Assembly: GCA_946478975.1 (NCBI GenBank)
Contig: CAMLEO010000364.1
Span: 1-6,195, forward strand
DNA length: 6,195 bases
Origin: an uncultured Steroidobacter sp.
GTDB taxonomy: Bacteria; Pseudomonadota; Gammaproteobacteria; Steroidobacterales; Steroidobacteraceae
Direction of reading: 5' to 3'
Below, one piece after another: positions 1 through 3,269 of the stretch. Below the pieces are notes generated by a model. The model was not told the origin of the DNA, did no database searches, and saw only the letters and a program-made list of their open reading frames with translations. The position numbers and the translations under genes are program-made. How positions within the stretch are numbered: the first letter of the stretch is position 1; each line of letters starts with the position of its first letter.

Positions 1-1287
1 CTGCGCGAGGATCAACGAGGCGCCGAAGTCCACATCGCGATTCACTGAATCCTTGGGACAGTTCAAGCGTTTCGAATTGCCGAAGCAGCCGGTGAGAAAA
101 ATATCGTTGGCGGTCGCCTGGAACGACCAGCGAATGCGGCCGTCTTTCAGATCGATTGCGAGAATCGCATCCGTGGTCGGCGCAGCGGGCTCCGAAGTTG
201 CTTCGCCGGTGCCGACATACAACACGCCGCGCCTGGCGTCGATTACAGGCGAGTTCCAGATCGGCGCGCCCGAGGGGCCGTAAATCATTTTGCCGTCGCC
301 GCGATCGCGCACCGGCTTCGCTTCTGCCATCGTGTGCGTGGTCCAAAGTTTCTTTCCAGTCGCGGCGTCCAGTGCGGTGACTGCGCCGTGGGTCTTGCAG
401 CACTCGTGATTGTCGTTGGCACCGAGTGAGATCTCATATTGTGAGATCGGCACATACACACGATCTTTGTGCATCACCGGCGTGCCGGTGGTCAGCGAGA
501 ACTGGTACAGCCCGACATACTGGATCCAAAGGAGCTGGCCGGTGCTCGCATCGAGCATGTGGACCTTCGAGGCCACATCGGCGAACACGATCACCTTGCG
601 GCCGCCTCGCAGTTCGCCGAAGGCGGCGCTGGTGCGCAGGGGTGTTTCGTGTTGGTAAACCCACTGCACGCAAGGCTTCGCTGAAATGTCGATTGCGAAC
701 AGGCGTTGGGCATCGGCGACGGGCAGGAACAATGTAGTGCCCACGACGGCAGGTTGCGAGCGCATCGCCGTCGCTTTGGGAAAACCGAGCGCCCATGCCA
801 GTTCCAGCTCCCGCATATCGCTGGTGCGCAGTCCGGCCTGCGCGGCGCTCAGCTGACGGTGATTTTTCACATCGAAACCGAAGCCGGCGACGGTCGCCGG
901 CGTGTCCAGTTTCACCCTGCGGCGCTCGGCCGGGCACATCATCGGCGCCAGCCATTCATCGGAAGTTGCCTCCCTGCCGACCAGGAAATCGATGACTGCA
1001 GATTTTTGCGCGGTACTGAGCGTTGCTGCCTGAACTTTCATCTTGCCTTCGTTCAGTGCGTACAGCAGGGTCTGATAGCGCATGCCCTTGAGCGTTTCGA
1101 GGGCCGGCGCGCGGCTCGCCTCGGGGTTGTTGTGACAGGCGGCACAGGCTTGGTCATACAAAGCCTTGCCCGGATGCTCCCCCGCATGTTCGTTGGCTGC
1201 CTCGGCCGCGGTCAGCGTTTGTGACCAAGTCAACATCAGCAGCGCGATTCCGAGCGCGAATTTCCGTATTGCGGCTACAGCGCACAT
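1..1287 (-). CDS. Cytochrome c/PQQ beta-propeller dehydrogenase, polyvinyl-alcohol-dehydrogenase-like (3' end outside window)
   Basis: The frame is open from an ATG at 1287 to the window edge, giving 429 residues; the C-terminus lies to the left. Residues 1-28 form a Sec signal peptide (basic RK, hydrophobic LGIALLMLT, then TAA). A short cytochrome c domain follows, with one heme site C48-A-A-C51-H52 and a probable axial Met near residue 83 ahead of a 'LSTAQKSAVIDFLVG' helix. From about residue 115 the chain is a PQQ-type beta-propeller with repeated 'ALDAATGKKLW' and 'AIDLKDGRIRWSFQ' blades. Vicinal cysteines C296-C297 resemble the disulfide next to PQQ in quinoprotein alcohol dehydrogenases. 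The VDFGASLIL segment also fits the family. Known relatives oxidise alcohols in the periplasm and pass electrons from PQQ to heme c. The substrate here cannot be told; 'polyvinyl alcohol' is a family label only. The start is fixed by an in-frame TAG directly before the ATG and a strong Shine-Dalgarno (1296-1303). It is divergent from the GH20-like gene. Confidence 0.88.
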   Translation of the reverse strand, partial: MCAVAAIRKFALGIALLMLTWSQTLTAAEAANEHAGEHPGKALYDQACAACHNNPEASRAPALETLKGMRYQTLLYALNEGKMKVQAATLSTAQKSAVIDFLVGREATSDEWLAPMMCPAERRRVKLDTPATVAGFGFDVKNHRQLSAAQAGLRTSDMRELELAWALGFPKATAMRSQPAVVGTTLFLPVADAQRLFAIDISAKPCVQWVYQHETPLRTSAAFGELRGGRKVIVFADVASKVHMLDASTGQLLWIQYVGLYQFSLTTGTPVMHKDRVYVPISQYEISLGANDNHECCKTHGAVTALDAATGKKLWTTHTMAEAKPVRDRGDGKMIYGPSGAPIWNSPVIDARRGVLYVGTGEATSEPAAPTTDAILAIDLKDGRIRWSFQATANDIFLTGCFGNSKRLNCPKDSVNRDVDFGASLILAQ

Positions 1288-1378: not shown

Positions 1379-1478
1379 CCGCGCTTGGGCATACCTCCTG
1401 CATATGGATGGCGCACGGGATTTATTTTTCGCCGCGCCTGAATAGACGACTACTGGCCACTCAACAGGGCGTCGGACG

Positions 1479-1493: not shown

Positions 1494-3269
1494 ATGGTTG
1501 GTCGAGGGTTGGCTGCGCTGACGGCGTGGCTGTGTTTGGCTGCAAGCGCTCTGGCGGCGGACCGCGCGGCGGATATTTCGCTGATTCCATGGCCGGCCAG
1601 TCTCGAAATGACCGGCGGCGCGCTCACCGTGGAGCCCGACACGCAGCTCATTGTCGCTGGCGACGCGAGGGTGGGCGTGATCGCGCGCTATTTTGGGGAT
1701 CTGGTGGAGCGTTCGCGCGGCTGGCGCCCCGTGATCGCTCAGGGCACGGTCGAGGATGCTCCAAAACGGGCCGTTGTCTTTACATTGGTGAGCGGCGGCG
1801 CCGGCGGCGAGGCCTACACCATCGATGTGTCTTCCAAAGGCGCTGTGGTCTCCGCCTCCGATCCTCGTGGCTTGTTCAACGGCGCGGTCACCATGTGGCA
1901 GTTGTTGACCATGCATGCGGCTGACACTCGCGAGATCCGCATTCCCGGCGTCAAGATCGTGGACGCGCCTCGGCTGCGCTGGCGCGGCCTGCTGCTCGAT
2001 TCCGCACGTCAGTATCAGTCGGTCGCCTTCATCAAGCGCTACATCGATTTCATGGCGCTTCACAAACTGAATGTGTTGCATTGGCGCCTGGTCGACGATC
2101 ACGCATGGCGCCTGCAGATTCCCAAATATCCCAAGCTCACCGGCGGCATGAGCTCTTACAGCGCCGATGACGTTCGCGAAGTGCTCACCCATGCGGCGGC
2201 TCGCAATGTGACTGTCGTGCCCGGGCTCGAAATGCCTGGCGGCGCGACGGCGGCGTCCACTGCATATCCGTTGCTGCGAGCGGCGGATGCACCGGTCCAG
2301 CAGGGCCCGACCTTGTACAACATCGATGAACAAACATTCGCGTTCTTCGACGACGTGTTCGCGCACGTGGCGTTGCTGTTTCCGAGCGAGTTCGTGCACA
2401 TCGGCGCGGCGGACGTGTCGAAGGATCAATGGAAACAATCGAGCAGCGTGCAGGCGCGCATGCGCGAGCTCGGCATCATCAACGAGCAGAAAGTGCAGCG
2501 ATATTTCTTCGAGCGCATCGGCCAGCTCACGCAGAAATATAAAAAGCGCATCGTCGGTTGGGACGCGGTGTTCTCAGGCGGCGTGCCCCAGGACACGGTG
2601 ATCATGACTGGCAAAGGTCTCGATGGCGCGCTGGGTGCCGTCGCCTCCGGCTATGAAGTGGTCGTGTCGTCACATGCGACGTTGAGTTTCAATCTCGCGC
2701 AAAGCGCGACCGGCAACGAAGCGGCGAAGACCGATATCCTCAGCCTGGGTGATGTTTATCGTTTCGATCCGGCGCCGGCGGCGCTCGGGGCGCAGGACTT
2801 GAGCCGATTGATCGGCGTGCAGGGCAATGTTTGGACGACGCCCGACGACAACGAAGACGATGTCGAGGCGATGACGTTCCCGCGGGCCGCGGCACTGGCG
2901 GAAATCGGCTGGACGGCGCCGAGCTTCTTACGTTGGGCTGAGTTTCAGCCGCGCATGGTCGCGATGCTCGGCCGCTATGCGCACATGGGCGTTCGTTTCA
3001 GCGATGAAGCGTTTCGCGCCATGGCGTTCAAGCGCGGCGAAAACGGCGGCAAAGTCGCCGTCGAGCTGGCGAAGCAAGTGCCGCTGGGAGAGATTCGTTA
3101 CACGTTGAACGGCAGCGAGCCGAACGCGAAGTCGCAGGTCTACACCGACGTGTTCGAAGTTCCGCGCGTGGCAACGATCAAGGCAGCCGTGTTTTATAAC
3201 GGCGAACAGTTATCGCGCACCACTTCCGTCAACGTGGCCACCGACATCGTCGGTGGCCCGGCGCAATAG
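1494..3269 (+). CDS. Secreted GH20 beta-N-acetylhexosaminidase-like protein with degenerate active site (predicted pseudoenzyme)
   Basis: This 591-residue protein has a Sec signal peptide (1-22, ending ASALA-AD), a GH20 N-terminal alpha/beta domain (about 28-158), a GH20 TIM barrel (about 160-500) and a C-terminal chitobiase/Fn3-associated-like domain (about 516-585, 'IRYTLNGSEP'). Length and order match normal GH20 enzymes, which remove terminal GlcNAc/GalNAc by substrate-assisted catalysis. Fold signatures kept: RGLLLDSAR (R172), YIDFMALHKLNVLHW, DD201-202, W356, W447, FPR (462-464) and AEIGW. Catalytic signatures lost: HWHL reads HWRL (R198); PGH reads PGG (G250); GGDE reads A305-A306-D307; WDE reads WDA (A358); the barrel Trp near 373 is Gly; the Tyr-x-Asp pair reads S398-F-N400; WTE reads WTT (T449). 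The frame is uninterrupted, so this is not decay by nonsense mutation. Normal hydrolysis looks unlikely. A role in sugar binding, regulation or a different reaction is inference. Confidence 0.87.
   Translation: MVGRGLAALTAWLCLAASALAADRAADISLIPWPASLEMTGGALTVEPDTQLIVAGDARVGVIARYFGDLVERSRGWRPVIAQGTVEDAPKRAVVFTLVSGGAGGEAYTIDVSSKGAVVSASDPRGLFNGAVTMWQLLTMHAADTREIRIPGVKIVDAPRLRWRGLLLDSARQYQSVAFIKRYIDFMALHKLNVLHWRLVDDHAWRLQIPKYPKLTGGMSSYSADDVREVLTHAAARNVTVVPGLEMPGGATAASTAYPLLRAADAPVQQGPTLYNIDEQTFAFFDDVFAHVALLFPSEFVHIGAADVSKDQWKQSSSVQARMRELGIINEQKVQRYFFERIGQLTQKYKKRIVGWDAVFSGGVPQDTVIMTGKGLDGALGAVASGYEVVVSSHATLSFNLAQSATGNEAAKTDILSLGDVYRFDPAPAALGAQDLSRLIGVQGNVWTTPDDNEDDVEAMTFPRAAALAEIGWTAPSFLRWAEFQPRMVAMLGRYAHMGVRFSDEAFRAMAFKRGENGGKVAVELAKQVPLGEIRYTLNGSEPNAKSQVYTDVFEVPRVATIKAAVFYNGEQLSRTTSVNVATDIVGGPAQ

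Follow-up and report, generated by a model that had tools for sequence, protein, structure and literature searches.

The question raised by this locus is whether a gene that encodes the whole scaffold of a GH20 beta-N-acetylhexosaminidase, with its catalytic residues replaced, is still maintained, and in what role. We analysed a window of 6,195 nucleotides from an uncultured soil bacterium, Steroidobacter sp., in which an open reading frame on the forward strand runs for 591 codons plus a stop, with no internal stops. Its product has the domain order GH20b-GH20-CHB_HEX_C, all present according to Pfam:

1494..3269, forward strand: pseudo-GH20 gene, 591 amino acids (open reading frame, Pfam, structure model)
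1494..1559, forward strand: predicted N-terminal export signal, recognised by eye as a hydrophobic stretch up to ...ASALAA, without a lipobox Cys (sequence; helix 2-19 in the model)
1575..1967, forward strand: GH20b domain, residues 28-158 (PF02838, 62 bits)
1977..2918, forward strand: GH20 TIM barrel, residues 162-475 (PF00728, 262.6 bits)
3039..3227, forward strand: C-terminal CHB_HEX_C_1 / Fn3-associated domain, residues 516-578 (Pfam)

GH20b and the barrel both score above the Pfam cut-off, placing the protein in the GH20 fold family, and its structure model, a confident GH20 fold (pLDDT 88.8), matches solved GH20 structures. The intact scaffold and clean frame that the original prediction had described are thus borne out by the reading frame, the Pfam scores and the model. 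In domain order, barrel and many structural residues the protein is like known GH20 beta-N-acetylhexosaminidases (6q63 BT0459; 7cbn Am0868; 3rcn Arthrobacter; 1hp4 SpHex; 6ezr Vibrio GlcNAcase), from which it differs in being without the catalytic dyad and most of the -1 subsite contacts.

The losses fall on recognisable motifs. The translation reads H196-W-R198-L, P248-G-G250, G304-A305-A306-D307, W356-D-A358, G373, S398-F-N400 and W447-T-T449, and these sites align with HWHL, PGH, GGDE, WDE, the barrel Trp, Y-x-D and WTE of solved GH20 enzymes and of 120 database relatives. Replacement of the key residue at seven GH20 signatures had been proposed from the letters alone; translation, pairwise and multiple alignment confirm each one, and alignment with characterised enzymes puts all seven substitutions on the intended motifs:

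2085..2087, forward strand: R198, replacing His in HWHL (translation, multiple alignment, site counts)
2241..2243, forward strand: G250, replacing His of PGH (translation, multiple alignment, site counts)
2406..2414, forward strand: A305-A306-D307, replacing Gly-Asp-Glu, catalytic dyad lost (pairwise and multiple alignment, site counts)
2565..2567, forward strand: A358, replacing Glu of WDE (multiple alignment, site counts)
2610..2612, forward strand: G373, replacing the pocket Trp (multiple alignment, site counts)
2685..2693, forward strand: S398-F-N400, replacing Tyr-x-Asp (multiple alignment, site counts)
2838..2840, forward strand: T449, replacing Glu of WTE (multiple alignment, site counts)

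We scored ten catalytic or -1 subsite positions (172, 198, 250, 306, 307, 358, 373, 398, 400 and 449), at which the window protein retains a single canonical residue, Arg172. The Asp-Glu dyad of active GH20 enzymes is replaced by A306-D307. For the -1 subsite, the contact list was matched to the window protein by sequence motif: Arg274, Trp487, Trp505, Tyr530, Asp532, Trp582 and Glu584 of Vibrio GlcNAcase (PMC8098473) correspond to positions 172, 356, 373, 398, 400, 447 and 449, of which the contacts at 373, 398, 400 and 449 are lost and Arg172, W356 and W447 are retained.

We then observe that the loss is not confined to this gene. The 140 relatives comprise the best 120 of 1079 matches and 20 new proteins among the best 120 of 1065 in a profile search; dead-type and canonical groups were first set by match order (P0001-P0088 against P0089 onwards) and later checked by residues and tree. 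The 52 canonical relatives retain 9-10 of the ten scored residues, with the expected residue in 52/52 at nine positions and in 51/52 at position 400, whereas the dead-type proteins (88 among the matches listed, and the query) retain 0-5. A tree built for 136 full-length proteins from residues 28-504 with the site columns removed, by a quick search with SH-aLRT as its only support measure and no bootstrap, places 84 dead-type rows on one side of a single branch (SH-aLRT 100); the fragments P0058, P0059, P0060, P0081 and P0088 were left out of the tree but enter the counts at the sites they cover. Members among the matches listed share 44-87% identity with the query. The profile search, made with 30 members, returned the same 88 among its best 120 of 1065, and since its 20 new proteins all carry Asp-Glu, the clade looks bounded at 88 among the matches listed, within a non-exhaustive search over at most 7998 candidates. 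Isolated neutral decay in the relatives, the outcome that would have spoken against the original prediction, was not seen: the query and these 88 form one clade. Because the fold is intact (262.6 bits; pLDDT 88.8) and the loss is common to a supported clade, the substitutions are not due to chance, and with its catalytic motif lost, its fold kept and its relatives alike in both, the protein has the features of a pseudoenzyme. The simplest reading of the tree would be a single ancestral loss of catalysis.

Position by position, E358, W373 and Y398 are retained in none of the 89 dead-type proteins and E449 in one, whereas the pocket Trp residues persist (W356 in 85/89, W447 in 86/89), as does D202 (88/89). 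Arg172, present in the query, is missing from 33 of the 88 clade proteins that cover this position. Glu307 occurs in 15/89, and Asp306 in 6 of the 86 whose sequences reach position 306. Loss of the dyad is not absolute, since six members have Asp306 and one of them, P0046, has both equivalents; all six are without E358, W373 and Y398 equivalents. These six (P0034, P0036, P0046, P0050, P0052 and P0057) sit at several separate tips nested within the dead clade, and their Asp has perhaps been regained. The expectation of a clade carrying the same substitutions stood in part: the loss is shared by one clade, but the particular replacements are common only to the query's 20-protein subclade, to which HWRL, PGG and WTT belong as features that are not clade-wide. 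Homologues with the AAD/PGG/WTT pattern do exist, and within that subclade G250, A306, D307, G373, S398, N400 and T449 are fixed in 20/20 proteins.

Residual or even normal hexosaminidase activity, with D307 as the acid, is suggested by the acidic nature of D307 and by the members with Asp306 or Glu307. We consider it very improbable, as Ala or Gln mutants of the Vibrio GlcNAcase dyad keep less than 1% activity (specific activity 19.4 falling to 0.05 and 0.07 in the Ala mutants; PMC4752478, whose passage on these mutants gives none with Glu-to-Asp) and the window protein lacks, in addition, the Trp, Tyr, Asp and Glu that contact the sugar. Judged by their PDB titles, engineered GH20 mutants (chitobiase D539A, 1c7s, and E540D, 1c7t; SpHex D313A, 1m03; Vibrio D437A, 6ezt) carry changes whose equivalents, Asp-to-Ala and Glu-to-Asp, the query has naturally and together; unlike in those mutants, the loss is natural and clade-wide, and further pocket residues are gone in the query's clade.

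Organism names are attached to 7 of the 88 dead-type proteins among the matches listed, all Steroidobacter or Povalibacter, and one dead-type locus is from Peristeroidobacter soli, so that the three named genera of Steroidobacteraceae are all represented. Of 150 genomes sampled from the family-level group to which the Peristeroidobacter genome belongs, 39 contain a GH20-like match; the dead type occurs in six, with copies at 49-74% identity. All six lie within a 14-genome genus-level group, whose remaining eight genomes divide into four with a match, in each case a canonical GGDE enzyme, and four without.

Next, we examined selection on the dead gene. Omega was calculated by NG86, a simple method, over the trimmed residues 24-585 of six genes, one from the window and one from each of five genomes; the median over 15 pairs is 0.157, with the omegas of window-gene pairs being rough because their dS is 0.9-1.2. 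Three bootstrapped pairs give 0.130-0.173, and the closest pair, G117/G108, has dS 0.244 and omega 0.130 (bootstrap 0.083-0.193). Median omega by domain is 0.207 for GH20b, 0.139 for the barrel and 0.139 for the C-terminal domain, and for comparison the six pairs of canonical paralogues from four of these genomes, with G002 and G046 left out, lie at 0.115-0.149. The dead gene is under purifying selection, about as strong as that on the canonical GH20, and it shows the maintenance by selection expected of a pseudoenzyme. The original prediction had suggested that the gene is probably under selection and proposed dN/dS as a check; the value of about 0.16, near that of the canonical paralogue, agrees with it. 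A decaying gene whose function has gone would fit the variable old catalytic sites and the absence of 9/10 residues from the query, but it is scarcely credible: omega already contradicts decay, the frame is open in the window gene and in six genome copies, the clade is deeply diverged, and neighbours in five genomes and an upstream element (both below) are conserved.

The ten old sites show 0-1 changes among the 52 canonical proteins compared with 7-23 among the 84 dead ones. Within the dead clade they average 14.3 changes, more than the 4.8 of other barrel positions that are invariant in canonical enzymes (permutation p 0.0007), whereas set against all barrel positions, with a mean of 9.9, the excess falls short of significance (p 0.069). 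In P0020-P0057, 0/10 old sites are invariant as against 122/319 barrel positions; in the query's subclade 8/10 are invariant as against 196/319, on account of which a new pocket specific to that subclade is possible. On these sequence counts the probable history is a single loss with subsequent drift at the old sites and, possibly, local re-fixation in the query's subclade. Nearly all polar residues that are invariant across the 89 are shared with canonical enzymes, and no polar barrel residue was found that is invariant in the 89 and missing from canonical enzymes. By contrast, E524 and D552, both in the C-terminal domain, are invariant in the dead clade and absent from 23/52 canonical proteins, and canonical proteins that have the C-terminal domain are also not invariant there; for this reason the retained function may reside in this domain.

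These counts bear on the proposal that the opened pocket, with D307, R198, W356/W447 and D202, catalyses another hydrolysis or a transfer. The residues fixed in the query's subclade and the retention of both Trp residues and D202 across the clade speak for such a changed reaction. Since the old positions vary across the dead clade, however, a repurposed catalytic site at these residues is argued against, as it is by the lack of old sites invariant in P0020-P0057 and of a clade-specific polar barrel residue, and we regard a changed reaction as improbable. Of the three roles put forward in the original prediction, namely binding, regulation of a partner and a changed reaction, the last, if placed at the old residues, is thus the least supported. 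Its broader claim of a role other than GlcNAc hydrolysis is favoured at the sequence level by the clade, the shared pattern and omega.

We also investigated the genomic surroundings. The window gene shares this stretch with a PQQ/cytochrome c-type gene that is cut and divergent, a convergent DUF4440/SnoaL-like gene, one gene for a LysE-family exporter and one, likewise cut, for a TonB-dependent receptor:

1-1287, reverse strand: divergent PQQ-type beta-propeller protein, cytochrome c domain at its N-terminus, truncated at the window end

By tblastn, the DUF4440, LysE and TonB genes adjoin the dead gene in 5/6 genome loci and the PQQ-type gene in 4/6; the Povalibacter-type locus (L041) is without all four, and the Peristeroidobacter locus (L037) is without the PQQ gene only. 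All six genomes with the dead gene (G001, G117, G108, G076, G002 and G046) also hold a canonical GGDE GH20. Both regions were compared in four genomes, and the canonical gene is there surrounded by one and the same set of genes. In G076 (L049), where genes were named by Pfam, this locus comprises PTS EIIC/EIIB, PTS EIIA-HPr-EI, GH20, a TonB receptor, GntR-UTRA, SIS and an amidohydrolase, with a LacI-type gene adjoining; in the other three genomes genes were named by similarity grouping. By gene content it is a GlcNAc-type (nag) locus. The dead gene lies outside it, with 64 kb between the two GH20 genes in G001. Further GH20-like sequences were a stretch with one internal TGA in the Povalibacter-type genome (G046:C1:70950-71696, L063) and a third GH20, with GGDE and 31% identity, in a Steroidobacter-type genome (G117:C2:430552-432108, L058).

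Co-occurrence raises the possibility of a prozyme-like partner, in which the window protein would join its cell's canonical GH20 in a complex and alter the activity or stability of that enzyme. Some GH20 enzymes are dimers, which would suit such pairing. The six co-occurrences carry little weight, as canonical GH20 is common, and because four of the 14 genus-group genomes carry the canonical GH20 alone, the canonical gene is independent of the dead one. Furthermore, the two genes are neither in one operon nor close, and a pattern search, a weak test, found no convincing GntR-like operator common to the dead gene and the GlcNAc locus. The canonical GH20 of L046-L049 has a lipobox-like N-terminus, unlike the window protein, a difference that is not general (lipobox pattern in 11/52 canonical and 5/88 dead-type proteins among the matches listed). 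On balance, a partner of this kind appears rather unlikely.

Upstream of the dead gene, we detect a conserved element:

1388..1402, forward strand: promoter-like element GGCATACCTCCTGCA, GG-N10-GC, with the -24/-12 layout of a putative sigma-54 promoter (conservation)

Its first base lies 106 nt 5' of the start codon in the window, and 39-106 nt across seven loci. Five of the 7 loci carry it exactly, the Povalibacter-type locus differs at one letter and G076 at two; it is the best-conserved upstream 15-mer (summed mismatches 3, compared with at least 28 in 30 mononucleotide shuffles). An exact search with GGCAYACCTCCTGCA in six genomes gave a single copy in five, each upstream of the dead gene, and none in G076, and the reversed control gave no matches in the six. 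The GG-N10-GC spacing, maintained in 7/7 loci, resembles that of the sigma-54 consensus TGGCACG-N4-TTGC(T/A) (PMC7910581); the Povalibacter-type copy reads TTGGCAC-N5-CTGCA, and the window copy differs from the consensus at several letters. A gene with a sigma-54 DNA-binding domain is present in 6/6 genomes. We infer that the dead gene is under sigma-54 control through this element. Matches to a looser pattern numbered 1-4 per genome compared with 0-2 for the reversed control, including the dead gene itself in four genomes, and yielded no regulon. A hairpin at the element sequestering the Shine-Dalgarno site was rejected, as pairing between the element and the ribosome site varies across seven leaders from 0.01 to 0.98. 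A leader peptide is doubtful, since by eye its frame is apparently not kept in the Povalibacter copy. Rfam gave two matches on the window, both below gathering scores. A second, less conserved stretch, CTATTAGAGTC, lies at 1310-1320, about 70 nt upstream of GGCATACCTCCTGCA, and may be a promoter part of either divergent gene.

Overall, we consider it likely that the gene encodes a conserved, exported, non-hydrolytic GH20 pseudoenzyme, under selection and acting by binding. Such a protein would not hydrolyse beta-GlcNAc by substrate-assisted catalysis, and would play a non-catalytic role outside the cytoplasm, with a glycan or protein partner bound through the retained scaffold, through the opened pocket with W356 and W447 as its floor, and/or through the C-terminal domain. 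These two kept residues leave an aromatic floor in the pocket; binding of terminal GlcNAc there is less likely, because the contacts made by Trp, Tyr, Asp and Glu are gone. Expression would come from its own sigma-54-type promoter and not with the GlcNAc locus.

Pseudoglycosidases are already known in other families, including the GH18 protein YKL-39, GH1-like klotho and GH33-related CyRPA (PMC7828330) and beetle GH28 pseudoenzymes (PMC6549527). As described there, they are alike in keeping the fold after catalysis was lost and in having a non-hydrolytic role; those named are eukaryotic and of other families, with no GH20 case among them. The trypanosome AdoMetDC prozyme, a dead paralogue that alters the active enzyme (PMC5201418), is alike in standing beside an active paralogue and differs in that the enzyme is unrelated, a complex with the canonical GH20 being hypothetical here. 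A search of the open-access literature, which was not exhaustive, found no described inactive GH20 clade.

Those clade members that bear names among the matches listed are called hexosaminidase, beta-N-acetylhexosaminidase or family 20 glycosylhydrolase, and such names probably mislead predictions of chitin or amino-sugar use. More tentatively, and with some doubt, Steroidobacteraceae may possess a pseudo-hexosaminidase family of exported binders that moved out of the GlcNAc locus and came under a sigma-54 promoter, sensing or delivering amino-sugar material or controlling the active GH20. The clade represents a natural series of GH20 proteins in which catalysis was lost, most simply once, and the scaffold was kept beside a canonical paralogue, and it lets selection on a dead glycosidase be tested in bacteria.
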